From NCBI GenBank assembly GCA_947450675.1, contig CANFWI010000009.1, positions 1 through 64,000 of the forward strand: DNA of 64,000 bases. Reading direction: 5' to 3'. Shown here piece after piece: positions 49,545-64,000 of the stretch (the stretch's first letter is position 1; each line of letters opens with the position of its first letter). This DNA is from Comamonadaceae bacterium. GTDB taxonomy: Bacteria > Pseudomonadota > Gammaproteobacteria > Burkholderiales > Burkholderiaceae_C. The position numbers and the translations under genes were made by a program. A model generated the notes under the pieces. The model saw only the letters and a program-made list of their open reading frames with translations. It ran no database searches and had not been told where the DNA came from.

Positions 49545-50402
49545 TCAGTAGCGCTGCCCCAAGGCCAACAGCTCCGGCGTGCCGATGACCTCATTCAGCT
49601 GATCAAAGTCGAGCATCTGGTCTTGCATCTGTGCCGTGGTCTGGTGGGCGTGCAAGCTGGCATAGTATTTTTGCAAGGTGAAGGCCACGGCTCTGGCCGT
49701 GCCACCTGGAAAAATGACAATGCGAAAACCTTTGTCGCCCAAGACCTTGGCACTTTGCACCGGCGTCTTGCCGCCTTCGACCATGTTCGCCAGCAAAGGG
49801 ATGCGGCCGGCAAAGCGGGCGCAAGCCAAGGCCATTTGTTCTGGTGTGCGCAAAGCCTCAATGAAAAGAGCATCGACGCCGCAAGCCAAATAGGCCTCGG
49901 CGCGTTCCATCGCCGCTTCAAAACCCTCGACCGCCAGCGCATCGGTACGCGCCAAAATCAGTGTCTCAGAGGATTTACGGGCGTCGAGTGCCGCCTTCAG
50001 CTTGCCGCACATCTCCAGCGTGGGGACGACACTTTTGCCGTCCAGGTGACCGCAGCGCTTGGGGAATGTCTGGTCTTCGAGTTGCAACATGGCGGCCCCC
50101 GCCTGCTCGAAAGCACGCACGGTGCGCATCGTGTTGAGCGCGTTGCCAAAGCCGGTGTCGGCATCGACGATCACCGGGATGCTGACGCGCTCAGTGATGC
50201 GCGCCAAGGTGTCGGCAACTTCGGTCGCGGTCGTCAGACCAATGTCTGATCGGCCAAGTTTGGTGTAGGCGATGGACGCACCCGACAGGTACAGCGCTTC
50301 AAAGCCGGCCTGCTCGGCAATCAAGGCGGTGAGAGGGTCATAAATTCCCGGTGCCAGCAGCACCTTGGGCTGATCTAAGCGTTGTTTGAATGAAATGGAC
50401 AT
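49545..50402 (-). CDS. Isocitrate lyase/PEP mutase superfamily lyase (2,3-dimethylmalate/methylisocitrate lyase-like)
   Basis: APGIYDPLTALIAEQAGFEALYLSGASIAYTKLG...DADTGFGNALNTMRTVRAFEQAGAAMLQLEDQTFPKRCGHLDGK; KRCGH lyase signature present. Confidence 0.9.
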   Translation of the reverse strand: MSISFKQRLDQPKVLLAPGIYDPLTALIAEQAGFEALYLSGASIAYTKLGRSDIGLTTATEVADTLARITERVSIPVIVDADTGFGNALNTMRTVRAFEQAGAAMLQLEDQTFPKRCGHLDGKSVVPTLEMCGKLKAALDARKSSETLILARTDALAVEGFEAAMERAEAYLACGVDALFIEALRTPEQMALACARFAGRIPLLANMVEGGKTPVQSAKVLGDKGFRIVIFPGGTARAVAFTLQKYYASLHAHQTTAQMQDQMLDFDQLNEVIGTPELLALGQRY

Positions 50403-50454
50403 AGCTCTCCTTAACGATAAATGACAGTGGCTTGAAATGGCGATTCGATGTTTT

Positions 50455-51876
50455 TTATGCCGAAGCCAACTGCGCAGCGGCCGTACCGGCAGCCACCCAG
50501 CCACCGCCTAAAGCGCTGAGCAGACCGTTGCCAGACAGATAGCCCCAGACAGCATTGCCGGACACACCGCGGGCGGCCCCGCCGGCAGCCAACAAATTAG
50601 GCAGTGGCGTGCCGTCGGTGCGCAGCACGCGGCAGTGTTCGTCGATGTCCAAGCCACCTTGGGTATGGAACAAAGCGCCGGTGACTTTGACGGCGTAAAA
50701 AGGCGCCTTCAAGGCGCGCTTAAAGCTGCGACCAAAGGCATCCGTTGAGCCCGGCAAAAGCGCCGACAAAGTCTGCGCCAAGGTCGCAGCGTCGCAACCG
50801 ATCAACTGCGCCAGCGCCTGCACATCCGCCGCTTCCTTCACAGCGCCAGCGCCTTCGGCCTCGACAAAATCGGGGAAAGTCCGCACCAGTTCCAACAAGG
50901 GCGCGTCAAAGACATTGAAAGCGATGCCACCCGGCTGATCCAACACGTGCACGGCGGCTTCTGAGTAGCCTTGAGATTCGTCGTGGAAACGCTGTCCGCG
51001 CGCGTTGATCTGCGCGCCGCCTTCCATCATCACCGCCCAGCTCATGAGCGCGCCTTGCGGGGTGACCCAAGAACCGTGGCCTTGGTAGCCCCCCAGATCA
51101 GCCAGTCTGGCGCCCATGGCTTGGCCCCACGTGATGGCGCTGCCGTCATTGCCGACATGCCCGGCAAACAAGGCCTGACCCATGGCCGGCAACAGTTCGC
51201 TGACCATCTCAGGATTGCCGCCAAAACCATTGCAGGCCAAGAGCAGCACATCGCAAGCGAGGTACTCCATCGCCCCATCGGGTCGCAGATAACCCACGCC
51301 CTGAACGATGTCGTCGTCATTCATCCACAACTCGCGGACCAGCGCTTCATTCAGCACATCCGCACCCACGGCGCTGGCCGTGCGCTCGAGCTGCACCATC
51401 AGCGCAGCACCGGTGCGCTCGGGCAAGGCGTGCATTCGGCGCGCACGGTGGCCTGGGTACAAAAAGCCATCCAGCACTTCAAAGCCAATGCCATGCGCCT
51501 CTAGCGAGTCAATCGCTTGGGCCACGCCGACAGAGTAGGCGGCGACCAAATGCGGCGCGGCATCGCCGTGGGCTTTGGCCTGAATGTCCTCTGCAAAATC
51601 TTCGACCGAGTCGTCAATGCCCAAGGACTTTTGCAAACGCGTAGCGGCCGCTGGAATGAAGCCTGATGACAAGGCCGTCGAACCTTGGGACATGGTGTCG
51701 CGCTCTAGCAGCACGCAATCAATGCCAGCGTCGCGCAGTCGCACCGAGGCGGTCAGACCGCAGGCTCCTGCTCCGACGATCACCACTGGCACGTGGGGCG
51801 TGTCGCTTGGCATGTTGACCGCCCGCACGATGCGCGCAGGCACATGGGGAATGGCTGGGGGTTTCAGCGAGCTCAT
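50455..51876 (-). CDS. FAD-dependent oxidoreductase, fumarate reductase/tricarballylate dehydrogenase-like flavoprotein
   Basis: VPVVIVGAGACGLTASVRLRDAGIDCVLLERD; C-term GALFHTQGGLDIDEHCRVLRTDGTPLPNLLAAGGAARGVSG; ATGA overlap with the LeuD-like gene. Confidence 0.88.
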   Translation of the reverse strand: MSSLKPPAIPHVPARIVRAVNMPSDTPHVPVVIVGAGACGLTASVRLRDAGIDCVLLERDTMSQGSTALSSGFIPAAATRLQKSLGIDDSVEDFAEDIQAKAHGDAAPHLVAAYSVGVAQAIDSLEAHGIGFEVLDGFLYPGHRARRMHALPERTGAALMVQLERTASAVGADVLNEALVRELWMNDDDIVQGVGYLRPDGAMEYLACDVLLLACNGFGGNPEMVSELLPAMGQALFAGHVGNDGSAITWGQAMGARLADLGGYQGHGSWVTPQGALMSWAVMMEGGAQINARGQRFHDESQGYSEAAVHVLDQPGGIAFNVFDAPLLELVRTFPDFVEAEGAGAVKEAADVQALAQLIGCDAATLAQTLSALLPGSTDAFGRSFKRALKAPFYAVKVTGALFHTQGGLDIDEHCRVLRTDGTPLPNLLAAGGAARGVSGNAVWGYLSGNGLLSALGGGWVAAGTAAAQLASA

Positions 51877-52361
51877 ACGCCTCGTCCTTGGCGTTGGCGA
51901 AGTTGGTTCATCAGCCCGCCAGCAGCCACCATGGCGAGCAAAAACTCGGGGATCGGTTCGCACTGAAAGTGCTCGCCAGAAGGACGTGTCAACCTCAAGG
52001 TTTGCAGGTCAAGTTCTACTTGTTCGCCCTCCTCCAGTTGCTCAGCGTCAGGCGTCGTCAAGAGCAACAGACCGAGGTTGAAGGCATTGCGAAAAAACAG
52101 GCCACTGAAGGAAGGCGCAATCACCGCCTTGACCCCCAGTTGCACCAAGGCAGCCGCGGCTTGTTCGCGCGACGAACCAATGCCAAAGTTGGGTCCCGCA
52201 GCGATGACCGCACCCGGCTGTACCGAGGCAGCGAATTCTGGCCGAACGGATTCCAGACAATGCGGCGCAATGCCCTCAATGCCAAGCTTCATGTAGGCAC
52301 CGGGTGCCATGGCATCGGTGTCAATGTCAGCGCCAAATGTCCAAACACGGTGAGTGCTCAT
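51873..52361 (-). CDS. 3-isopropylmalate dehydratase small subunit-like (LeuD/DmdB-like)
   Basis: HRVWTFGADIDTDAMAPGAYMKLG...GPNFGIGSSREQAAAALVQLGVKAVIAPSFSGLFFRNAFNLGLLLL. Confidence 0.92.
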   Translation of the reverse strand: MSTHRVWTFGADIDTDAMAPGAYMKLGIEGIAPHCLESVRPEFAASVQPGAVIAAGPNFGIGSSREQAAAALVQLGVKAVIAPSFSGLFFRNAFNLGLLLLTTPDAEQLEEGEQVELDLQTLRLTRPSGEHFQCEPIPEFLLAMVAAGGLMNQLRQRQGRGV

Positions 52362-53644
52362 GCCAATATCTCCCTGGGATCAGAAATCAGTCCCCGCAGG
52401 GCAGAAGCCGCCACGGTGTAAGGCGACGCCAGATAAACCTGCGCCGTCTCCGAGCCCATCCGGCCTTTGAAATTGCGGGCGGTGGTGGCGATCACATTGG
52501 CACCATCTGGGATTCTGCCGCCATAGCCGGAACAAGCGCCACAGGCTGTGGGAAGCACTTCAGCACCGGCCTCGCGCAGCGTTGTCATGATGCCTTCCGA
52601 CTCGGCCTGTTGCTGGTCTTGCTGGCTCGCCGGGGCCACCATCAAACGCACGCCAGTGGCCACCTTGCGGCCCTTGAAAACCTGCGCAGCGGAGCGCAAG
52701 TCGTCGAGCTTGGCGCCCGTGCACGCACCGATGTAGGCCACATCTACGCGGACCTGGTCGAAGGCTTGAACCGGCTGGGTATTCGCCGGACTGTGTGGCG
52801 CGGCAACTTGAGGCGCCAGCGTCGCTGCATCAAAAACGTGCGTGGTCGCGCTCGCGCTGTCGTCCGTCATCCAGCCGCTGAGGTCCATCTCAGCTGCGGC
52901 TGCAACGCCGGCCTTGAGTAGCCATTCACGGGTGGTTTCGTCGGGTGCAATCAAGCCCACCTGAGCACCCATCTCGGCGCTCATGTTCGACAGCGTCATG
53001 CGCTCTTGCATGGACAGCGCCTGCACGCCGGAGCCACAAAATTCCACCGCTTGGTATTGGCCACCGTTCATGCCAAAGCGCCCGATCATGTGCAGCATCA
53101 TGTCTTTGGCTGCAACCCCCGGGCTCAAGGTGTTGTCCCACTGCATGCGAATGGTGTCGGGCACCCGCACCCAGAGCTCACCCGTGACCATCACTCCCAG
53201 CATTTCAGTGCTGCCGATGCCGAACATGTAGGCGCCAAAAGCACCGCCCGTGGGAGAGTGCGAGTCACCGCCGACGCAAAACATGCCTGGCCGAATATGG
53301 CCTTTTTGTGGCAACACGACATGGCAGATGCCGATGCTGTCGTACACATGCGGCAAGCGCTGCTCGATGGCCCAGTCGCGAGCGATGCGCACGATACGCC
53401 GCGAATCATCGTCTTGCTCAGGCACGTAGTGGTCCATCACCAGCACGACCTTGGACTTGTCCCAAATGGTGGCGCCCAGTTCTTCCAACATCGGCTTGAG
53501 ACGACGCGGGCCTGACGAGTCGTGAAACATCGCGAGGTCTACTCGGCAATTGAGAATCTCACCCACCGCCACCTGCGAGCGGCCAGCGGAAGTGGCTAAC
53601 AGTTTTTGGGCCAGCGTTTGGCCTGGAATTTGAAGTTGCGACAT
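52358..53644 (-). CDS. 3-isopropylmalate dehydratase large subunit-like (LeuC/DmdA-like, aconitase superfamily)
   Basis: Start MSQLQIPGQTLAQKLLATSAGRSQVAVGEILNCRVDLAMFHDSSGP; VMDHYVPEQDDDS, GDSHSPTGGAFGAYMFGIGSTEM, IGACTGAKLDDLRSA, CGACSGYGG Fe-S cysteines. Confidence 0.92.
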   Translation of the reverse strand: MSQLQIPGQTLAQKLLATSAGRSQVAVGEILNCRVDLAMFHDSSGPRRLKPMLEELGATIWDKSKVVLVMDHYVPEQDDDSRRIVRIARDWAIEQRLPHVYDSIGICHVVLPQKGHIRPGMFCVGGDSHSPTGGAFGAYMFGIGSTEMLGVMVTGELWVRVPDTIRMQWDNTLSPGVAAKDMMLHMIGRFGMNGGQYQAVEFCGSGVQALSMQERMTLSNMSAEMGAQVGLIAPDETTREWLLKAGVAAAAEMDLSGWMTDDSASATTHVFDAATLAPQVAAPHSPANTQPVQAFDQVRVDVAYIGACTGAKLDDLRSAAQVFKGRKVATGVRLMVAPASQQDQQQAESEGIMTTLREAGAEVLPTACGACSGYGGRIPDGANVIATTARNFKGRMGSETAQVYLASPYTVAASALRGLISDPREILA

Positions 53645-53696: not shown

Positions 53697-54482
53697 TCAA
53701 CCGGCAGACCGGTCCTTGACCGAAATACGGGCATCAATGCTGCCAACCTGTGAAACTTCCAGTTGGTACTCGTAGCGATCGGGCCTGTAAAGTCCGTGCA
53801 GCCACTGCACCGGCTTGTCATGAATGTCAAAAACCAAACGTCGGACGGCCAGCAAGGCGGTCCCAATGGGCACCCCCAGTTCAGCCGCCACCACCGCATC
53901 CGCCTGACGGGCAGAGATGGTCTGCTGAGCGCGTCCGAGCTCAACACCGGACTCCTCCAGCAGCTGCAAAATCGGCGTGGTGGCCAGCTCGCGCCGACCA
54001 AAGCCGACGGCCAAATGCTCGGGTAGGTAAGCCGTGATGTAAGACAGCGGCCCCTCTTGTGAGCTGCGGATACGCACTGCTTTTTTGACCTTGGCACCCA
54101 AAGGAATTTGCAGCATCTCGGCAACTTCTGCCGAGGCATCAACCACTCTCCAGTCCAGCACCTTGACGGTGGTTTGGCGGGTGGTGCTGACGATGTTTTC
54201 CATCAGGCCTGTCAGTCGGGTTTGCACGCCCTTGCTTTGCGGGATCGACGTGCGGACGGCCTGACCAGCTGCGGGCCAGGTGCCACGACCGGCCGTCCGA
54301 ACGATCAAACCCTCGCTGACCAATTGTTCCAACGCACGTCGTACGGTGACACGGCCAACACCGAATTGCTGGGCCAGCACCATTTCCGCAGGCATGCCGT
54401 TGGCAAAACGGCCCTCTTGCAATTGCTCGCGCAGCACCAGATAAATCTGGTGGTATTTGGTCAGCGGAAGATGGAGGGACAT
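53697..54482 (-). CDS. GntR family transcriptional regulator with UTRA domain (HutC subfamily)
   Basis: MSLHLPLTKYHQIYLVLREQLQEGRFANGMPAEMVLAQQFGVGRVTVRRALEQLVSEGLIVRTAGRGTW, UTRA-type C-terminus. Confidence 0.92.
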   Translation of the reverse strand: MSLHLPLTKYHQIYLVLREQLQEGRFANGMPAEMVLAQQFGVGRVTVRRALEQLVSEGLIVRTAGRGTWPAAGQAVRTSIPQSKGVQTRLTGLMENIVSTTRQTTVKVLDWRVVDASAEVAEMLQIPLGAKVKKAVRIRSSQEGPLSYITAYLPEHLAVGFGRRELATTPILQLLEESGVELGRAQQTISARQADAVVAAELGVPIGTALLAVRRLVFDIHDKPVQWLHGLYRPDRYEYQLEVSQVGSIDARISVKDRSAG

Positions 54483-54502: not shown

Positions 54503-55078
54503 TTAGCGCGCAGTGAAGCCACCGTCGGCACAAATCACCTGGCCAGTCGTGAAGGAAGCCCGGCTTGACAGCAAAAAGCTGATGAGCTCCGCGATCTCGG
54601 CCGGCTGACCCAGCCGGCCCATCGCTAGCGTCGACAACATCGTCGCCAATGCAAGCGGATCGTTCGGTGTTGTCTCGACCATCGGCGTCTGCACCGGACC
54701 CAGTCCCACAGTATTCAGCCGCAGGCCTTCCGAAGCCCACTCCAACGCGAGCGATCGAACCATGCCATTCAAGCCTGACTTGGAAGCGGCATAAGCAGCG
54801 CCGTGGGCATGGCCGACCAAGCCGATTTGGCTGGTGTTCAGCACGACACTGGCATCGCCAGTCCGGGCCTGACGCATCTGCGCCACCGCAGCACGTGTCA
54901 AAACAAATGTCGCATCAAGGTTCAAAGCCAGCGTCTTGCGCCATTCGTCAAGCGCCGTTTCATCAGAGTTTTTTATGTAAAAAATACCCGCGCAACAAGC
55001 CAAGGCGTCCGAGCCGTTGCCGGTGACCAACGCGTGTCGTCCCGCCCCCTCAAGTTCAAGCAAGGTGTTGGACAGCAC
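54503..55078 (-). CDS. SDR family oxidoreductase, apparently truncated by an in-frame internal deletion of the cofactor-binding region
   Basis: 191 aa; [49 protein letters not shown] joins the TG of TGxxxGxG almost directly to the NNAG-equivalent; C-terminal [19 protein letters not shown] intact. Confidence 0.8.
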
Positions 55079-55081
55079 GCG

Positions 55082-55783
55082 TTAAAGTCCCAGGTACTTT
55101 TTACGCAAATCCGGATCACGCGCCAAGGCCTGAGCCGGCCCTTGCATCGCCACCGCTCCGTTTTCAATGATGTAAGCCCGGTTGGCAATGGCCAAGGTCT
55201 GCAAGGCGTTTTGTTCCATCAAGAGAATCGATTGACCTTCCTTGTTGATCGCACGGATCAAGGCAAACATCTCATCGACCAACAACGGCGACAAACCCAG
55301 CGATGGCTCGTCCATGATCAGTAGTTCCGGCTCGGACATCAGGCCGCGTCCGATCGCCAGCATCTGTTGTTCGCCCCCCGACAGGGTACCGGCCAATTGG
55401 CCAAAGCGCTCCTTGAGGCGAGGAAAGATCGCCACCACACGCTCGAGATTTTTCTGTCGATTAGGCTTGCCACGCACCAAGCTGCCAAGTTCCAGGTTTT
55501 CCAACACATTGAGGTTGGGAAAAACCCGGCGACCTTCTGGCACATGGATCACACCCAGCTTGACGATGTCGGTCGAACTCATGCCGACCAACTCTTGTCC
55601 GTGAAATCGTATGGAGCCGGAAAATGGGCGGTACAGCGCAGAGATGTTGTTGTTGAGGGTCGACTTGCCCACACCATTGCTGCCCAACACCGCAACGATC
55701 TCACCCTGCGCCACATCAAGATCAATGCCGCGCAGGATTTCGACCTTGCCATAGCCTGCAAACAACGAACGAATTTCAAGCAT
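55082..55783 (-). CDS. Branched-chain amino acid-type ABC transporter ATP-binding protein (LivF-like)
   Basis: MLEIRSLFAGYGKVEILRGIDLDVAQGEIVAVLGSNGVGKSTL...LSGGEQQMLAIGRGLMSEPELLIMDEPSLGLSPLLV. Confidence 0.94.
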   Translation of the reverse strand: MLEIRSLFAGYGKVEILRGIDLDVAQGEIVAVLGSNGVGKSTLNNNISALYRPFSGSIRFHGQELVGMSSTDIVKLGVIHVPEGRRVFPNLNVLENLELGSLVRGKPNRQKNLERVVAIFPRLKERFGQLAGTLSGGEQQMLAIGRGLMSEPELLIMDEPSLGLSPLLVDEMFALIRAINKEGQSILLMEQNALQTLAIANRAYIIENGAVAMQGPAQALARDPDLRKKYLGL

Positions 55784-56519
55784 GCGAGCCCTCCTGAGCC
55801 ATCTGTTCGGCAGCACCACGGCCCAAATAGGCCTCAATCACCGCCGGGTTGTTGACCACCTCCTTCGGCGCGCCGTGAGCAATGATTTTTCCGTAAGACA
55901 GCACGTAAATGTGTTCAGACAAACTCATCACCGCCTGCATCACATGTTCAATCAGCAAAATTGTCACGCCACTGGCACGAATCCTCCGAATAATCTCAAT
56001 AATTTCAATGATTTCTGAGGGATTCAAACCCGCCATCACCTCGTCGAGCAACAGCAACTTGGGTGAGGTCGCCAGTGTGCGTGCCAGTTCCAATCGCTTG
56101 CGTCCGGCCACAGTCAGGTCAGCTGCCGGTTGTTCTAGCTGGGCACCCATACCGACTTGGTCAGCGATGCGGCGTGCGTGTTCCCACGCTTCGGAGGGGT
56201 CATGAAATTTTTGATATGCACCCACCGCAATGTTCTCGTGCACCGTGAGTTTGGCAAACGGCTGCGTGATCTGGAACGTGCGGACCATGCCGCTGCGTGC
56301 GATGTCGTGCACCGGCCAGCCAGTCGTGTCCTTCCCTTGAAAAGTGACCTTGCCGGAATTGATGGGCTGAAAGCCAGCGATGCAGGAAAAGAGCGTGGTC
56401 TTGCCCGCACCGTTGGGACCAATCAACGCCACGATACGTCCCTCTGCAACATCCAAAGAAGCGCTGTCAACAGCCTTGAGGCCGCCGAAAATTTTAGTCA
56501 ATCCTTCGACCTTGAGCAT
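55776..56519 (-). CDS. Branched-chain amino acid-type ABC transporter ATP-binding protein (LivG-like)
   Basis: MLKVEGLTKIFGGLKAVDSASLDVAEGRIVALIGPNGAGKTTLFSCIAGF...LLLLDEVMAGLNPSEI. Confidence 0.94.
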   Translation of the reverse strand: MLKVEGLTKIFGGLKAVDSASLDVAEGRIVALIGPNGAGKTTLFSCIAGFQPINSGKVTFQGKDTTGWPVHDIARSGMVRTFQITQPFAKLTVHENIAVGAYQKFHDPSEAWEHARRIADQVGMGAQLEQPAADLTVAGRKRLELARTLATSPKLLLLDEVMAGLNPSEIIEIIEIIRRIRASGVTILLIEHVMQAVMSLSEHIYVLSYGKIIAHGAPKEVVNNPAVIEAYLGRGAAEQMAQEGSHA

Positions 56520-57493
56520 CAAGCGCCCCTTTGTTTGAAACGTTGACCGATACGCTTGAATAAATCGATCAAACCGTTGGGTAAAAAGGCAATAATGATG
56601 ACCAGCAGCGTACCGTAAAGTACCAGTGACAGGCCTTGCACATCGGTCAGCACACGAGTCAAGTCGCCAACACCGGCCAGCAACAGCGCACCAATCAATG
56701 GGCCGTAGACGGTACCGGCACCACCGATCATGCTGACCAGCAGCATCTCGACCGACTTGTCGACACCGAACACGATGGTCGTGTCGATGTACAAAAAGTA
56801 CTGAGCAAAAAAACACCCGCCGACACCACACATCGCACCTGACAGCACCATGACCTTGACCTTCTCCCTGAAGACGTTGATCCCCAAGGCCCTGGCGGCA
56901 TCTTCGTTTTCACGAATAGCGGCCAGTTGAGCGCCAAATCGTGATCGCCTCAACCACACAGCCACGGCAACGGAGATGACCGTCAAAGCGAGAATCAGAA
57001 AATAAAAACCAATGCGCTCCGCAAACTGAAAGTTCGCCATGCTTGGTTTGGCGGGGATCAGCAAGCCAAGCCCACCCCCCGTGAAACCCACTGAATTAAC
57101 CAGGATGCGCAACACTTCGGCAAAGGCCAGGGTAATGAGCGCAAAGTACGAGCCCTTAAGACCCGCGCGGAATGACAGGAAACCGATGATCCAGCCCACG
57201 ATGGCGCCGGCCACCGCGCTCGCCGGCAAGCCCAACCAAGGGTTCATCCCGTAGCGCAACTGAAGGACCGTCGAGGCATAAGCACCCGCACCAAAAAACA
57301 CCACATGGCCAAATGACAACTGCCCGGCAAAACCACCTGAAATGTTCCACGACTGCCCAATGAAGGCATAGAACAGCGCCAGCACACCGAAGTTCACAAT
57401 GAAGGGCGAAGAAAAAACAAAAGGGAACATCACGGCGAGAGTCAACAGACTCAAATGCAATGGCCAACCGATTGAGCGCGTGTTGTCATTCAT
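56519..57493 (-). CDS. Branched-chain amino acid-type ABC transporter permease (LivM-like)
   Basis: 324 aa, polytopic; GQSWNISGGFAGQLSFGHVVFFGAGAYASTVL; GINVFREKVKVMVLSGAMCGVGG. Confidence 0.94.
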   Translation of the reverse strand: MNDNTRSIGWPLHLSLLTLAVMFPFVFSSPFIVNFGVLALFYAFIGQSWNISGGFAGQLSFGHVVFFGAGAYASTVLQLRYGMNPWLGLPASAVAGAIVGWIIGFLSFRAGLKGSYFALITLAFAEVLRILVNSVGFTGGGLGLLIPAKPSMANFQFAERIGFYFLILALTVISVAVAVWLRRSRFGAQLAAIRENEDAARALGINVFREKVKVMVLSGAMCGVGGCFFAQYFLYIDTTIVFGVDKSVEMLLVSMIGGAGTVYGPLIGALLLAGVGDLTRVLTDVQGLSLVLYGTLLVIIIAFLPNGLIDLFKRIGQRFKQRGA

Positions 57494-58359
57494 CGCTTAG
57501 CTCCGAAAAGACCTGATGGGCGAAACAGCAGAATCAAAATAAAGATCAATGAAATGCCAATCTGACCCAAGCTTTCACCCAGAAACAAACCGCCAAACGA
57601 CTCCGTCAGCCCGACGATCAAACCACCCACCACGGCCCCCAGGAAACTGCCCATCCCACCCAACACCACGATGGTGAAAGCCACCATCACAAAGACATGG
57701 CCAGTGGTCGGAGAAACGTAGAAAATCGGCATCAGCAAACAGGCTGCAGCCCCCAGCGTCGCCAGACCCATGCCATAAGAAATGGCAAAAATACGGTCGA
57801 CGTTGATCCCCACCAAACGAGCACCAACACGCTCCTTGGCCACCGCGCGAATAGCCCTGCCGGTATCGGTGTGCTGAATGAACAGTCCAAGGGCGGCACA
57901 CAAAGCCATGGCGGCCCCGAACGAGATAATTTTGGGCAGCGACACCAGCGTGGGGCCTACTTCGACCATCATGTCGGAGTAAGACACTGAAATGGTGCGT
58001 GTATTTCCCTTGAAAAACATCAACGCCAAGTTCTCAATCAAGATGGAGAGGCCCAGCGTGATGAGCAATATGTTCTCATCCTTGCCGTGCGCCATTCGGC
58101 CAATCAACAGCTTGTAAAGCAGAAACCCCAGAAGATACATAGCTGGCACCATGATCAACAGCGACATGTAGGGGTCTATCCCGAAAATCGTCAGCAAGTA
58201 GTAAACGCCAAACATGGCCAGCATCAGCATGCTTCCGTGCGCAAAATTGATGATGTGCAAAACGCCATAAATCAACGTGAGTCCTGACGCAACGAGGGTG
58301 TAAATACCCCCAATCAGAAGTCCGTTGATCGTGGCTGCGCCTAGGATCGTCAGGTCCAA
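57490..58359 (-). CDS. Branched-chain amino acid-type ABC transporter permease (LivH-like)
   Basis: 289 aa; INGLLIGGIYTLVASGLTLIYGVLHIINFAHGSMLMLAMFGVYYL; VVLGGMGSFLGAVVGGLIVGLTES. Confidence 0.94.
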   Translation of the reverse strand: MDLTILGAATINGLLIGGIYTLVASGLTLIYGVLHIINFAHGSMLMLAMFGVYYLLTIFGIDPYMSLLIMVPAMYLLGFLLYKLLIGRMAHGKDENILLITLGLSILIENLALMFFKGNTRTISVSYSDMMVEVGPTLVSLPKIISFGAAMALCAALGLFIQHTDTGRAIRAVAKERVGARLVGINVDRIFAISYGMGLATLGAAACLLMPIFYVSPTTGHVFVMVAFTIVVLGGMGSFLGAVVGGLIVGLTESFGGLFLGESLGQIGISLIFILILLFRPSGLFGAKR

Positions 58360-58454: not shown

Positions 58455-59672
58455 TCAACCGAGCTTAGGACGCGGGAAGATAGGCTTGGCTGATGCGAAC
58501 TGGTTAGGCCAAACCACGTCAATGTCGGTGGCCGTTGCCTGCAACAGGGCTGCCCGTCCACCTTCATTCTGTCCGTTGACGAATTTGGTTTCGCCGTAAG
58601 GCATAAAGTGGTTAGACCAGCGACTGCTTTCCAGTGCGGCGATCGCTTTGTCTTTGTCTGCCGACTTGGCTCGCTCCAGCGCGTCGGCATAGACCATGAC
58701 CGAGTTCCAGCCGCAATAGACTTCAAAGGTAAACAGATTGCCGGTGGCTTCGACCTTCTTTTTCAACTCGATGGCTTTCGGGTCACGAGGATTGAACCAA
58801 TGGTTGAAGTCCATCATGTACTGAGCCACCTGAGGTTGCTCTTTGACCAACTTATAGTTGAAGCCGCCGCCCAACACACTGAACATGCCAGCCAGCTCGA
58901 CCTTTTGCTGGTGCAGCGTGCGGGCAAGCAGCACGTATTCGTTCTGGTAATTGCTCATGATCACCAGGTCGGGCTTGATGCCCTTGATGCGCAAAGCCAC
59001 ATTGGAAAAATCGCGCGTCGGATTGGCGTGCTTGATGACCTCGGCCACCTGCACGTTGATCGACGGCAACTTACCTGCCAGCAGTTTGGCGGTGCCAGTT
59101 CCGAACTCAGACTCTTCATGCACCAGCACCGCGGTCTTGACCACGCTACCGGCGGCCTTGTTGACCTCACCCAAAGCAATGATGGCGTCATCAGCGCACT
59201 TGCCAAAGCCAGGCGCCAAACGGAACACATTTTTAAGGCCGCGGCTGACGATCAGATCGGACACGCCGACGTCAATCAGGAAAGGCGTGTTGTATTTGGC
59301 TGCGGCCTGCGTGGCAGCCAGTGCAATGGCACTGGCAAAGCAGCCGATGTATGCAGAAACGCCGGCCTGATGTAAACGCTCGACTTCGGCTACACCGATC
59401 TCGGGACGCGACTGGGAATCGCCCAAAGCGGCCTCCAGCTTGACGCCGCCCATGGACTTGATACCACCTGCCGCATTGACCGCATCAATGGCCATCTGGC
59501 AGCCCAAACGACCTTGGCCGCCGCTGTAAGCCAAACCGCCGCTGACGGGATGAATCAATCCGATCTTGATTGAGTTGGACTGGGCCCAAAGCAGGCCTGG
59601 GGACCCCAGTGCGGCACTTGCGGCACCAGCCTGAAGGATCAATCGACGAGTTAGCTTGGCATCGGTAGTCAT
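58455..59672 (-). CDS. Branched-chain amino acid-type ABC transporter substrate-binding protein (LivK-like, possible Tat signal)
   Basis: TRRLILQAGAASAALGSPGLLWAQSNSIKIGLIHPVSGGLAYSGGQGRLGCQMAIDAVNAAGGI; type-1 periplasmic binding fold. Confidence 0.93.
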   Translation of the reverse strand: MTTDAKLTRRLILQAGAASAALGSPGLLWAQSNSIKIGLIHPVSGGLAYSGGQGRLGCQMAIDAVNAAGGIKSMGGVKLEAALGDSQSRPEIGVAEVERLHQAGVSAYIGCFASAIALAATQAAAKYNTPFLIDVGVSDLIVSRGLKNVFRLAPGFGKCADDAIIALGEVNKAAGSVVKTAVLVHEESEFGTGTAKLLAGKLPSINVQVAEVIKHANPTRDFSNVALRIKGIKPDLVIMSNYQNEYVLLARTLHQQKVELAGMFSVLGGGFNYKLVKEQPQVAQYMMDFNHWFNPRDPKAIELKKKVEATGNLFTFEVYCGWNSVMVYADALERAKSADKDKAIAALESSRWSNHFMPYGETKFVNGQNEGGRAALLQATATDIDVVWPNQFASAKPIFPRPKLG

Positions 59673-59724
59673 GGGCAAATCCTCAAAAGAAGACAAACAA
59701 AAAGGTTAGGAATTTAGAATCGCT

Positions 59725-59750
59725 TAATTGTTCCATCATTAGAACAATTA
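59725..59750. promoter_or_regulatory. Perfect inverted repeat in the divergent livK/mmgE-prpD promoter, candidate operator
   Basis: TAATTGTTC-CATCATTA-GAACAATTA, both 9-nt arms exactly complementary. Confidence 0.65.
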
Positions 59751-59868
59751 CCCTAGACTATGTCGACAACTTTTGATGAAGTCAAGCATTAAAGCCGAGC
59801 TGCTAAAAAATTCAGCACTCAACCTGATGCCTAAAGCCGCCAACAGAAATCCCAAGAGAACCCACCCC

Positions 59869-61221
59869 ATGGACTACCTCGACACCTTCAGCAGCTTTGC
59901 CGCCAACACGCACTACCCCGCGCTGAGCAGCGACATTCAAGAACAAGTCGGCTGGATTCTGGCCGACACCGTCGGTGCCATGGTCGCCGGTTCGGCCGAG
60001 CCTGAGCTGCGATCACTGGCGGCCAAACAAGTCCCGGGCACCGCGGCACTGCTGGTCGGGCTAGGCCGCAGCGCTCCTGCCGAGGTCGCCGCACTCATCA
60101 ATGGGACCGCCGGCACATTTTTGGAGATGGACGAGGGCAATCGATTTTCACGCGGCCACCCCGCCATCCACGTGATTCCGGCGGCACTGGCGCTGAGCCA
60201 GGAACGCGGCACATCGGCAGCTGACTTTTTGTCAGCCATCGTGGCCGGCTACGAAGTCGGCTCTCGCCTTGGCGCCGCATCGGCCTTGCGCAGTGCTATG
60301 CACCCGCATGGCACGTGGGGCACGATTGCAGCCGCAGCCGCCTGCGCCCGGATCGCCGGCATGGACGCCAAGGCCATGCGCGAAACCATCAACATCAGTG
60401 CGTCGATGAGTACCGCCACATCCAAGCAAACCATGTTGGAAGGCGGACTGGTGCGGAATGTCTACGCGGGCCTGAGCAATCGCAACGGCTTGCTGGCCCT
60501 GCAATTGGCCGAGAGTGGCTTCACCGGCGAACACGATGGACTGAGCTCACTGCTCGGCAAGATCATTTCGGACAAATTTGACACGGCTGGACTGATCGAA
60601 GGCTTGGGTCAAGACTGGCATTTGATGCGCAACTATTTCAAGCTGCATTCTTGCTGCCGCTACAACCACGGCACGCTGGACGCCATTGACCAACTGGCTG
60701 CACAAGGCACCCTGCCCGCGCCCTCCGAGATTGCCCGCATCGACGTGGCCACCTACAACTTAGCGGCAGAGCTCAAGGACAAAGCCCCTCGCAACACACT
60801 GGCAGCCAAATTTTCAGTTCCGTTTGCGGTGGCAACGCGACTGGTCAACGGCAGCAGCGCGCTGTCAAGCTTCACCTGGGAGGCTGTTCGTGATCCAGCC
60901 GTGATGGCCTTGGCGCAAAAAGTGGAGGTCTCCGAAGACCCCAGCATGACGCAACGCCTGCCACTGGAACGGCCAGCCAAAGTGGTCATCACCTTGCTCA
61001 ACGGCCAACAAGTCACCGGCGAAGCCGGCGTGAACCGCGGCGATGATGCAGCGCCCTACACCCGAGATGAACTGCGTCACAAGTTCATGGACCTGACGCA
61101 GCGTGTGTGGCCTGCCGCACATGCCCACGACGTGCTCGAAGCCACGCTGCAGTTGGCTGCGTTGAAAGGCTCGCTGCCAGAATGGACCGCCTTGTTGAGC
61201 CAAGCACCCAAGCTCGGTTAA
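59869..61221 (+). CDS. MmgE/PrpD family protein
   Basis: Start at ATG 59869 (MDYLDTFSSFAANTHYPALSSDIQEQVGWILADTVGAMVAGSAEPEL); NGTAGTFLEMDEGNRFSRGHPAIHVIPAALALSQERG; HSCCRYNHGTLDAID. Confidence 0.93.
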   Translation: MDYLDTFSSFAANTHYPALSSDIQEQVGWILADTVGAMVAGSAEPELRSLAAKQVPGTAALLVGLGRSAPAEVAALINGTAGTFLEMDEGNRFSRGHPAIHVIPAALALSQERGTSAADFLSAIVAGYEVGSRLGAASALRSAMHPHGTWGTIAAAAACARIAGMDAKAMRETINISASMSTATSKQTMLEGGLVRNVYAGLSNRNGLLALQLAESGFTGEHDGLSSLLGKIISDKFDTAGLIEGLGQDWHLMRNYFKLHSCCRYNHGTLDAIDQLAAQGTLPAPSEIARIDVATYNLAAELKDKAPRNTLAAKFSVPFAVATRLVNGSSALSSFTWEAVRDPAVMALAQKVEVSEDPSMTQRLPLERPAKVVITLLNGQQVTGEAGVNRGDDAAPYTRDELRHKFMDLTQRVWPAAHAHDVLEATLQLAALKGSLPEWTALLSQAPKLG

Positions 61222-61239
61222 CGCCATGCTGGCGACTCT

Positions 61240-61641
61240 TCAGCCCAAAGAATTGTCGCCACTCATGTAAACAAACACCTCGACAAACAAACCGTCCTGC
61301 AGGCGAAAGAAGTTGCAGTTGTTCTTCAACAATGTCTGCCCATCGTGCGTGATGTTTTCCACTTCAAAACGGCTGGCGATGCATTGCTTCGCCACGTCGA
61401 CCACATGCTCGAAATGACCGTGCCAGACCTTGGCATAACGCGCGTTGAGTCGTTCGAACATGGCGCGTAATTCACTGTCCCGGCCGGTGTACAAGGTCGA
61501 ATAAGTGGCAATGCTGAAACGCGCCTCAGGGGCAAAGCAAGCCAACACCGCCGGCAGATCGTGACGGTCAACCGCAGCGAAGTAACGCTCAGCCAGTTCA
61601 ACCAGCGCTGGCGCGGCCAGTGGGGGATGTGACGCATTCAT
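61240..61641 (-). CDS. Nuclear transport factor 2 (SnoaL)-like domain protein
   Basis: 133 aa; ALVELAERYFAAVDRHDLPAVLACFAPEARFSIATYSTLYTGRDSELRAMFERLNARY; 4-bp overlap with the upstream racemase-like gene. Confidence 0.85.
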   Translation of the reverse strand: MNASHPPLAAPALVELAERYFAAVDRHDLPAVLACFAPEARFSIATYSTLYTGRDSELRAMFERLNARYAKVWHGHFEHVVDVAKQCIASRFEVENITHDGQTLLKNNCNFFRLQDGLFVEVFVYMSGDNSLG

Positions 61642-62405
61642 GGCTGCACATTTTTTTTAGCCGCGTCCATCATGGCGGTGAGCATGTCTAAGCGTGGATG
61701 CATCGGCCGTGGGTAGGCGGTTCTGCTGTGCGAATGTCCCAAGGCCAAGGCCGCTTCGGCCATCTTGTAACTCAGCGGCCCGGGATTGATCACGGGAACC
61801 GGCAAACGACCTTGGAGGTAACCGTGGGCTTGGTGCATCGTGGTCGACCCGAGGATGATGACGTCCGCACCATCGATCTCAATGGCTTTCATGGCCGCAG
61901 CTTCGAGCAAGGGAAAAACTTCTTCTTCCTTGCCCGACAGCAAGCCCTGGTTGTCGGGGCTGACTTCAATGGCCCTGACTGACGCGCATTTGTGATGCAT
62001 CCCCAGCTCGTCCAATGCTTTTTTATACAGCGGCTTCCAGCGGCTGGCCATGGTCAGAATGGAGAATTTGTCACCCAGCATGAGCGCCGTCAACATGGAC
62101 ACCTTGCCCGGCCCAAACACGGGAATGTCGAGCACGGATCGCAGCGCGGCCACGCCGGAGTCACTCATGGTGTCAATGCAGACGGCCGCAAAGCCTTCCT
62201 CTTGCGCCCTGCAGCCGGCCTCAAAAATAGAGGCATCGGCCAACACAAAATCATGGTGACTGGAATAGTTCACCGGCCCGGCTTTGACCGAACGGTATTC
62301 AAACTGCAGGTCCGGGCCAAACTGCAGCCCTTGAAGTTGCTGCTGCCGCAGCGCCAAATTGTCTGCTGACATGGCAAAGGGAACGATGGTCAACACTTTT
62401 TTCAT
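61638..62405 (-). CDS. Aspartate/glutamate (hydantoin) racemase superfamily protein
   Basis: MKKVLTIVPFAMSADNLALRQQQ...AAVCIDTMSDSGVAALRSVLDIPVFGPG...DVIILGSTTMHQAHGYLQGRLPVPVINPG. Confidence 0.88.
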   Translation of the reverse strand: MKKVLTIVPFAMSADNLALRQQQLQGLQFGPDLQFEYRSVKAGPVNYSSHHDFVLADASIFEAGCRAQEEGFAAVCIDTMSDSGVAALRSVLDIPVFGPGKVSMLTALMLGDKFSILTMASRWKPLYKKALDELGMHHKCASVRAIEVSPDNQGLLSGKEEEVFPLLEAAAMKAIEIDGADVIILGSTTMHQAHGYLQGRLPVPVINPGPLSYKMAEAALALGHSHSRTAYPRPMHPRLDMLTAMMDAAKKNVQP

Positions 62406-62508
62406 CAAGAACTCCAAGTTAAAAGACGCTCCAGCGTGCTGAACGCAAGTGAAGACTATTCAAAAGCAGGCATGATGCAACGTCCGTGAACCTCAGAAAA
62501 GCAAAATC

Positions 62509-63075
62509 ATGCCCGTCATCTCCATCACCTTGTTACCCGGCTACAGCGCAGAGGCCGAAGCGCGGCTGGTGGGCCGTGTAGCGGTCGCGGCACGCTCGGT
62601 TATTGCCGCAGCCGCAGCGGGCACCACGGTGTTCGTGAACCACGCCCACACCTACCAACGCGATGGCCGGGTGTTCTCCAAGGGCGGGCCGGAATGTGCC
62701 GACGCCAGTGCGCTGGTGCGTCATTTTCTGGAGCTGATGCAAGCGCGCCATTTGACGGCAGCCAGCGCCCTGCTTTCGCCAGATTTTGTGATGCACTTTC
62801 CGGGTGATACCCGCATGCAGCAACTCGACGAATGGGTCGCTTGGGCCAAAGTCCGCTACAGCCGCATCGCCAAAGACTACGAACGCTTTGACGAGAGCTG
62901 GGCCGACGGCGTCACCGTGGTGTACTGCTCGGGCACCCTGAACGGCCTTTGGCTCGACGGCACGAGCTTTGAGAAAATCCGCTTCATCGACCGTTTTGAA
63001 ATTGCCGATGGAAAAATCCAAAGACAAGACGTCTGGAATGACTTGGCGGAAGTCAAAGCCCAGACGCCCGTCTGA
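62509..63075 (+). CDS. Tautomerase-like N-terminal domain (Pro after Met1) fused to an NTF2/SnoaL-like domain
   Basis: MPVISITLLPGYSAEAEARLVGRVAVAARSVIAAAAAGTTVFVNHAHTYQRDGRVFSKGG then VRHFLELMQARHLTAASALLSPDFVMHFPGDTRMQQLDEWVAWAKVRYSRIAKDYERFDESW. Confidence 0.78.
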   Translation: MPVISITLLPGYSAEAEARLVGRVAVAARSVIAAAAAGTTVFVNHAHTYQRDGRVFSKGGPECADASALVRHFLELMQARHLTAASALLSPDFVMHFPGDTRMQQLDEWVAWAKVRYSRIAKDYERFDESWADGVTVVYCSGTLNGLWLDGTSFEKIRFIDRFEIADGKIQRQDVWNDLAEVKAQTPV

Positions 63076-63079
63076 AGGT

Positions 63080-64000
63080 TCAAGCCTGTGATGATTTCCA
63101 GGCATCCAGGATCTCGCTTCCAGTCGCCGCCCAGACACCTTTGTGACGCATGATGTGCGCCAGTGCTTCTTCTAGCGCGCGCATGCGGTAAGGCTGACCG
63201 ATCACCCAAGGGTGCAACGAAATGGCCATGACCCGCCCACCCGCCGTAGCCGACTCTTTGTACAGCAGGTCGAACTGGTCGCAGAGTTGGTCCCTGAAAT
63301 CATCTTCGGTGTGGTGGTTTTGAACCAAGATGGTGTGATCGTCCATGTCGATCGGGTGCGGCATCGCGTGAATCGGCCCGCTGGCCGTGCGCATGGCGTA
63401 GGGCATGTCGTCATTGACCCAGTCGCAGACGTAATCCATGCCCGCAGCGCCCAACAAGTCCAAGGTACTGGCCGACTCTGACTTGGCCGGTGACAACCAG
63501 CCCCGCACCGCCTGGCCACTGGCCCGACGCAAGATCTCTAGCGTGGTGTCAATCAGCTTTTTCTCATCGTCAAGCGCCAGACCCGCGTGGTGCAAATGAT
63601 CCATGTCCAGGCCATTCGCCATGATCTCCCAGCCCCGCTGCGTGCACTCTTTGATGAGCGATGGGTAGCGCACCGCGACCGCAGCGTTGACCGCCACAGT
63701 CGGGCGAATACCGTGTTTTTCAAGCGCCTTCATGATGCGGAAAATACCCACCCGGTTGCCATAGTCGCGCAAGGTGTAGTGACGCAAATCCGGGTAAGCG
63801 GTCTGCATGGCACCAGGCGGTTTGAAGGGCACGCCCGCCATGTTCAGCGGAAACCACTCCAGTGCCGGCACCACCCACAATGCAACTCGGGCGTTGTTTG
63901 GCCAGACCACGGGTTTGCGCTCAGGCAACATCGACCAGTCGTAATGGTCATGGTCCATGCCGTAGCGGCGCAGCGGATAGTCCAGATAATTCTCAGGTAC
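63080..64000 (-). CDS. Polysaccharide deacetylase family protein (NodB/PuuE-type), partial, runs off the right edge
   Basis: VPENYLDYPLRRYGMDHDHYDWSMLPERKPVVWPNNARVALWVVPALEWFP...HTLRDYGNRVGIFRIMKALEKHGIRPTVAVNAAVA; reading frame open to the window end. Confidence 0.9.
   Translation of the reverse strand, partial: VPENYLDYPLRRYGMDHDHYDWSMLPERKPVVWPNNARVALWVVPALEWFPLNMAGVPFKPPGAMQTAYPDLRHYTLRDYGNRVGIFRIMKALEKHGIRPTVAVNAAVAVRYPSLIKECTQRGWEIMANGLDMDHLHHAGLALDDEKKLIDTTLEILRRASGQAVRGWLSPAKSESASTLDLLGAAGMDYVCDWVNDDMPYAMRTASGPIHAMPHPIDMDDHTILVQNHHTEDDFRDQLCDQFDLLYKESATAGGRVMAISLHPWVIGQPYRMRALEEALAHIMRHKGVWAATGSEILDAWKSSQA

Follow-up and report, generated by a model that had tools for sequence, protein, structure and literature searches.

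In the lower part of nicotinate fermentation by Eubacterium barkeri, a dialkylmaleate originating from the methyleneglutarate mutase step is handled by the dimethylmaleate hydratase DmdAB and by dimethylmalate lyase. In the lower half of the methylcitrate cycle, a hydratase and PrpB lead to pyruvate and succinate. Cyclic imides are opened by hydrolases with the polysaccharide-deacetylase fold, such as HxnM of Aspergillus nidulans and CIH of Pseudomonas putida, and in A. nidulans the HxnM step is followed by an amide hydrolase which leaves a C5 dicarboxylate (PMC9304392). Here we describe a locus, at approximately 49.5–65.7 kb of an 84,552-base contig from a freshwater Comamonadaceae-type bacterium, that encodes enzymes related to all of these; the window, i.e., the whole stretch of DNA analyzed, comprises the first 64,000 bases of the contig. 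As in E. barkeri, a LeuCD-like hydratase followed by a PrpB-like lyase would act on a substituted maleate and malate, but in this locus they are preceded by an opener of cyclic amides and an amidase, and glutarate genes suggest a tricarboxylate. Compared with the methylcitrate cycle, the proposed chemistry and the enzyme families are the same, the known route being one carbon shorter; unlike that cycle, the cluster has no methylcitrate synthase, its PrpB-like protein stays under the equivalog cut-off, and glutarate is the predicted product.

The region is best read as a single catabolic regulon under GntR control that serves a substituted cyclic imide or a close cyclic amide, with hematinic acid as the best fit, and the probability of this reading as a whole is put at about 0.5. 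Its first half is a minus-strand operon encoding LivK, H, M, G and F, a short-chain dehydrogenase (SDR), a GntR-family regulator, LeuC, LeuD, an FAD (flavin adenine dinucleotide) enzyme and the PrpB-like lyase. A sequence-only reading of the window had proposed that the catabolic locus extends across the divergent promoter to five further genes, those for an MmgE/PrpD protein (MmgE), a racemase-like protein (Race), an NTF2-like protein, a tautomerase–NTF2 fusion and a PuuE-type hydrolase (PuuE1). All five proved to be open, coding-like frames with family matches and, once the contig was read beyond 64 kb, PuuE2 and an isochorismatase-family amidase were found there, making PuuE1 the last member of a three-gene operon, isochorismatase–PuuE2–PuuE1.

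A PuuE1 profile scan of 85,462 species genomes returned 80 loci, spanning Beta-, Alpha- and Gammaproteobacteria as well as Flavobacteriaceae, and orthologues were also sought in 150 genomes of the same family. The triad recurs, with PuuE2 in 77/80 loci and the amidase in 68/80, several of the exceptions being cut by contig ends. LivK, LeuC/LeuD, PrpB or the FAD enzyme stands at most 10 kb from PuuE1 in half of the loci (40/80) and in 28/46 of those with a length of 15 kb or more. The linkage across the divergent promoter is kept in Comamonadaceae, as the sequence-only reading had anticipated, and recurs, rearranged, in Burkholderia, Alcaligenaceae, Microvirga, other Alphaproteobacteria and Flavobacteriaceae. 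Complete single operons with both halves are present in the distant isolates Paenalcaligenes suwonensis, Alcaligenaceae bacterium 429, Microvirga antarctica and M. brassicacearum, and in Burkholderia sp. SRS-W-2-2016 the two halves stand back to back on one contig. One contig of genome G083 carries isochorismatase–PuuE2–PuuE1, MmgE, PuuE4, LivKHMGF and the SDR up to the contig end and another one ends with LeuC–LeuD–FAD enzyme–PrpB; genome G038 shows the same arrangement, with contigs breaking inside the locus. As an internal control, the neighboring alpha/beta hydrolase and pca genes are linked in three loci only, all from very close relatives. A gene set recurring in conserved order across many genomes is more than chance, and it is practically certain that the two halves are conserved as a linked locus, in which two different LeuCD lineages are in use.

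The module has also been found on conjugative plasmids of Burkholderia plantarii (p1, locus L141), where both halves are together, of Acidiphilium multivorum and of Sphingobium sp. TomTYG65; Sphingomonas sp. JE1 has it on a mobilizable plasmid. The plasmid loci are L141, L146, L147 and L148, and in some of them transposases adjoin the module. Because of these locations, the module is probably horizontally mobile.

Besides their linkage, the two halves have an operator in common. The perfect inverted repeat TTGTTC-N8-GAACAA occurs at the LivK/MmgE divergent promoter (O1) and ahead of the amidase operon (O2), and the 3.06-Mb genome has just three perfect matches, the third of which has an unrelated center and lies beside a different regulator-like gene. 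Among relatives the operator is located upstream of LivK in 20/20 cases (0.28 expected from shuffles) and upstream of the amidase in 25/33 (0.22 expected from shuffles); none was seen upstream of PuuE1, PuuE2 or Race in the relatives searched. It adjoins gntR in L045, a variant with a hydantoinase, as well as in L068 and L141. To judge from these sites, both halves very probably form a single regulon, in agreement with the earlier suggestion that the divergent transcripts are co-regulated, and the GntR protein is probably the DNA-binding protein acting at the operator. Since the -35-like hexamer TTGACA is part of O2 and has a fitting -10, a protein bound there would be expected to block the promoter. 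In the plasmid loci other than that of B. plantarii and in the Microvirga and Paenalcaligenes loci there is no convincing site, so another operator is probably used there.

From a biochemical perspective, LivKHMGF would import the compound, the PuuE1/PuuE2 pair would hydrolyze its ring to a half-amide, and the amidase would remove ammonia and leave a dicarboxylate. If the substrate is a succinimide, the FAD enzyme would introduce a double bond; LeuCD would hydrate the maleate-type double bond, and the PrpB-like lyase would cut the hydroxy acid into an oxoacid and a second acid. A cyclic imide fits ring opening, half-amide hydrolysis, substituted-maleate hydration and retro-aldol cleavage alike, and such a route from imide or amide to the lyase is considered probable. 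With a carboxyethyl group on the carbon beside the hydroxylated one, a PrpB-type lyase would yield glutarate, and with a methyl group on the hydroxylated carbon the partner product would be pyruvate; the matching imide is hematinic acid. This compound would thus be converted through its amide to the diacid methyl-cis-homoaconitate, then to methyl-homoisocitrate and finally to pyruvate and glutarate, and the glutarate would pass into glutaryl-CoA metabolism.

Hematinic acid is a breakdown product of heme and chlorophyll, and the dihydro form of its imide is expected from ring D, which is reduced in chlorophyll; speculatively, the FAD enzyme could put the double bond into this dihydro form, and MmgE or Race could adjust its stereocenters. 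The sequence-only reading had named a maleimide from tetrapyrrole breakdown as a speculative candidate. The family of the hydratase (homoaconitase), that of the lyase (methylisocitrate lyase) and the adjoining glutarate-catabolism genes make hematinic acid the best-fitting specific substrate, but a hematinic-type imide still has slightly less than an even chance of being the true one. Even more tentatively, the locus can be regarded as a dedicated, mobile bacterial pathway that mineralizes hematinic and dihydrohematinic acid imides via methyl-homoaconitate to pyruvate and glutarate. Hematinic acid and maleimides have been reported from senescent leaves and lake sediments, and chlorophyll is made and degraded at 10^12 kg per year (PMC7318184). 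In the literature searched, no description of a bacterial pathway consuming one-ring chlorophyll oxidation products was found, and a search for maleimide, imidase or hematinic acid catabolic gene clusters gave nothing describing this locus. If the proposal is true, it ties a substrate to genes at the last stage of tetrapyrrole breakdown, i.e., the one-ring remnants of heme and chlorophyll, and gives a coherent role to genes whose annotation goes no further than polysaccharide deacetylase, isochorismatase, isopropylmalate dehydratase or phosphoenolpyruvate (PEP) mutase. Moreover, a compact, probably GntR-regulated cluster of freshwater, soil and marine bacteria with so precise a predicted product, glutarate plus pyruvate, makes the question directly testable.

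As regards the ring-opening enzymes, the two PuuE proteins have PuuE allantoinase as their closest curated model and as their closest solved structures by sequence, and a predicted model of a PuuE2 orthologue (mean predicted local distance difference test score, pLDDT, of 76.6) has its best Foldseek matches in 1z7a and 3cl6, which points to the PuuE fold. Unlike that allantoinase, however, PuuE1 (125 bits) and PuuE2 (156 bits) are far below the TIGR03212 cut-off of 424.6 bits, and here two different copies are adjacent in a non-purine gene context. The likeness to HxnM and CIH lies in the proposed opening of a cyclic imide by a polysaccharide-deacetylase fold, but these enzymes group with HpPgdA and the present pair lacks the second metal histidine. 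At the HxxxH metal-binding pair of the CE4 fold PuuE2 reads HGTYN, and PuuE1 has N or H first and lacks a fitting second histidine. At residue 137 of PuuE1 (window about 63614–63616), 41 of 81 sequences have N and 35 have H, and the histidine is conserved in PuuE2; asparagine in about half of the PuuE1 sequences suggests that one PuuE partner is catalytically altered. The amidase retains the triad D57/K151/C184 in 69/69 aligned sequences and belongs to the isochorismatase family of CSHase/NicF type.

Further indications come from clusters devoid of PuuE, in which a dihydropyrimidinase-type hydantoinase (L045, L152) or, in a Paraburkholderia cluster (L144), HyuA/HyuB with a RutB-like amidase fills the place separating LeuD from the FAD enzyme or PrpB. 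The PuuE pair, hydantoinase and HyuAB all belong to families opening cyclic amides, and their interchange, together with the conserved amidase, supports the cyclic imide already envisaged from the window. The lyase varies as well: a CaiB-type CoA-transferase and a 3-hydroxy-3-methylglutaryl-CoA (HMG-CoA)-lyase-like protein occur with or without PrpB (L134, L145, L146, L147, L148), a variation that would suit the cleavage of a 3-hydroxy-3-methyl acid intermediate.

Of the hydratase subunits, LeuC scores 409 bits to the homoaconitate hydratase family TIGR01343 (cut-off 385.7) and LeuD 160 bits to the LeuD/DmdB family TIGR02087 (cut-off 109). The PrpB-like protein is nearest to methylisocitrate lyase and is linked to the PuuE triad in distant loci; at 289 bits it is under the 354.4 cut-off of TIGR02317 (2-methylisocitrate lyase) and is not certified as PrpB, but it carries the KRCGH motif and is therefore probably a lyase. 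The FAD enzyme is distantly similar to tricarballylate dehydrogenase.

A glutarate link is seen on the B. plantarii plasmid, where a porin, ETF beta and alpha, glutaryl-CoA dehydrogenase (GcdH) and a CoA-transferase come after PrpB. The acyl-CoA dehydrogenase, with 735 bits to 3gnc, is clearly glutaryl-CoA dehydrogenase, and the best family of the CoA-transferase is succinate-glutarate CoA-transferase (542 bits, under the 750-bit cut-off). In L082, GcdH and a CoA-transferase lie downstream of NTF2 on the same strand; in genomes G065 and G043, GcdH is divergent and next to gntR; in G038, a CoA-transferase starts 15 bases past PrpB. For another 19 loci, a position of GcdH beside the cluster could not be established from their genomes. 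On balance, glutarate is rather likely to be a product of the pathway.

Several observations weigh against the reading as a whole. No tetrapyrrole-cleaving enzyme is encoded within the locus; some of its versions lack the FAD enzyme, MmgE, Race or NTF2 protein; many of the 80 loci stop at contig borders; and, according to a manual reading of the alignment, the FAD enzyme seemingly lacks one substrate-binding arginine of fumarate reductase. GcdH is present in 141/151 family genomes, mostly in single copy, so that only its position is informative, and it does not adjoin the cluster in most loci, nor in the host genome. The sequence-only reading had pointed out that the family of PuuE1 includes some cyclic imide hydrolases; the family assignment stands, but by sequence and fold both PuuE proteins are closer to allantoinase PuuE than to enzymes of the HpPgdA/CIH type. 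This, with amidase structures nearest to N-carbamoylsarcosine amidohydrolase, makes a cyclic ureide possible: the PuuE pair and the isochorismatase could convert a 5-substituted hydantoin or another cyclic ureide via an N-carbamoyl acid to an amino acid, while LeuCD and PrpB would serve a step that comes later or is separate. The interchangeable ring-openers do all three belong to hydantoinase-type families, and the predicted fold of Race is that of allantoin racemase. No transaminase or ammonia-lyase, however, recurs in the gene maps to join an amino acid to LeuCD/PrpB, an amino-acid product would have no need of glutarate genes, and Race is without the two catalytic cysteines; a ureide pathway is thus unlikely.

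Rather unlikely, too, is that the same regulon serves another alkylated maleimide or succinimide (e.g., methyl-, dimethyl-, ethylmethyl- or vinylmethylmaleimide), giving pyruvate and a monocarboxylate as in the dimethylmalate lyase step of nicotinate fermentation. The match of LeuD to the LeuD/DmdB model, the resemblance of PrpB to 2,3-dimethylmalate lyase as well as to methylisocitrate lyase, and the additional PuuE3, PuuE4 and second isochorismatase of freshwater versions, which give the impression that several imides are handled, agree with it, but it leaves the glutarate genes beside the cluster unexplained and does not account for the match of LeuC to the homoaconitate hydratase model. 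LeuCD–FAD enzyme–PrpB without PuuE, and the triad without LeuCD, also occur, as would be seen if imide opening and LeuCD–PrpB were independent modules for different substrates, neighbors only as nitrogen or carbon scavenging genes under the same regulator. This is improbable given that, where PuuE is absent, a hydantoinase or HyuAB occupies the operon, that the operator is common to both halves and that joint operons are repeated in distant taxa. Most improbable is a nicotinate/picolinate-type maleamate pathway (NicD–NicF–NicE) with the alpha/beta hydrolase at contig 65739–66644 as N-formylmaleamate deformylase: genes of the isochorismatase, alpha/beta hydrolase and Asp/Glu racemase families are close together in the host genome, but that hydrolase is linked in three close relatives only, neither a ring hydroxylase nor a dihydroxypyridine dioxygenase was seen in the cluster gene maps, and Race lacks the maleate isomerase cysteines. 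A cluster of this type was rejected because the hydrolase is not conserved and these cysteines are missing.

Among the genes across the divergent promoter, MmgE belongs to its family by PF03972 (132 bits) and PF19305 (117 bits), both above the gathering score; it does not reach the PrpD equivalog models, and its nearest solved structures are iminodisuccinate epimerase and B. subtilis IRG1. The assignment of Race to the Asp/Glu racemase superfamily was borne out, but at the aligned positions of the two cysteines typical of hydantoin/allantoin racemase or maleate isomerase it has Thr83 (32/32 orthologues) and Ser191 (31/32), so a new reaction type in this superfamily is possible. In the fusion protein Pfam recognizes SnoaL only, and the tautomerase-like N-terminus with Pro-1 is a manual reading of MPVISITLLPGY. 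The coordinates of all features are collected in Table 1.

Table 1. Features of the locus; positions are those of the window unless marked as contig positions.
Feature	Position	Strand	Remarks
PrpB-like lyase (isocitrate lyase/PEP mutase superfamily)	49545..50504	-	KRCGH motif; predicted C-C lyase
FAD enzyme, flavocytochrome-c fumarate reductase/TcuA (tricarballylate dehydrogenase) group	50455..51963	-	start codon uncertain
LeuD-like small subunit, aconitase-family hydratase	51873..52361	-	TIGR02087
LeuC-like large subunit	52358..53605	-	TIGR01343; start taken from match
GntR-family regulator, proposed ligand sensor for whole locus	53697..54482	-	family match
SDR, shortened	54503..55078	-	family match; comparison with relatives
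LivF, LivG, LivM, LivH ABC transporter subunits	55082..58359	-	
LivK substrate-binding protein	58455..59672	-	ATG at 59672
Operator O1, perfect inverted repeat TTGTTCCATCATTAGAACAA	59728..59747	.	divergent LivK/MmgE promoter
MmgE/PrpD family protein	59869..61221	+	ATG probably at 59869; PF03972 and PF19305
SnoaL/NTF2-like protein	61240..61641	-	family match
Race, Asp/Glu/hydantoin racemase superfamily	61638..62417	-	PF01177
Tautomerase-like N-terminus fused to SnoaL domain	62509..63075	+	Pfam: SnoaL part only
PuuE1, PuuE-like polysaccharide-deacetylase-family protein	63080..64024 (contig)	-	window end cuts at 64000
PuuE2	contig 64021-64938, outside window		operon member with PuuE1
Isochorismatase-family amidase	contig about 64935-65621, outside window		operon member with PuuE1/PuuE2
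Operator O2	contig 65673-65692 (L005:1673-1692)		in front of isochorismatase (amidase) operon

PuuE3, PuuE4 and the second isochorismatase of close relatives have been lost from the host genome, where the SDR counts 191 residues vs. about 252; by this comparison its locus is a reduced version. With about 60 residues missing and part of the Rossmann region apparently lost, the SDR is possibly a decaying gene. In the near relatives L057, L058 and L059, PuuE3, PuuE4 and the second isochorismatase are in the locus, and L059 also has a PhyH-like dioxygenase. L043 (12841–14262), L044 (4644–6128) and L082 (3–860) have an AtuA-like protein (DUF1446; manual reading) that lies between SDR and GntR or at the corresponding contig edge.

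Farther upstream of the triad are the alpha/beta hydrolase, arfB and protocatechuate/quinate genes clustered with a Liv transporter of their own. The protocatechuate/dehydroshikimate cluster looks complete (PcaCD, PcaB, a split QuiC-like gene, LivFGMHK and IclR) and is located at contig 67.2–77.2 kb (L003 9224–19194). The protocatechuate/quinate genes were rejected as part of the system, being linked in the same three close-relative loci only. A second contig of the same genome (G000:C25; L054, L056) carries a paralogous PuuE-like gene and a CaiB-like gene, and elsewhere in the genome there is a PrpB–LeuD–LeuC–TctC/Bug-like set, 34–41% identical; these sets possibly represent a related pathway for another substrate.

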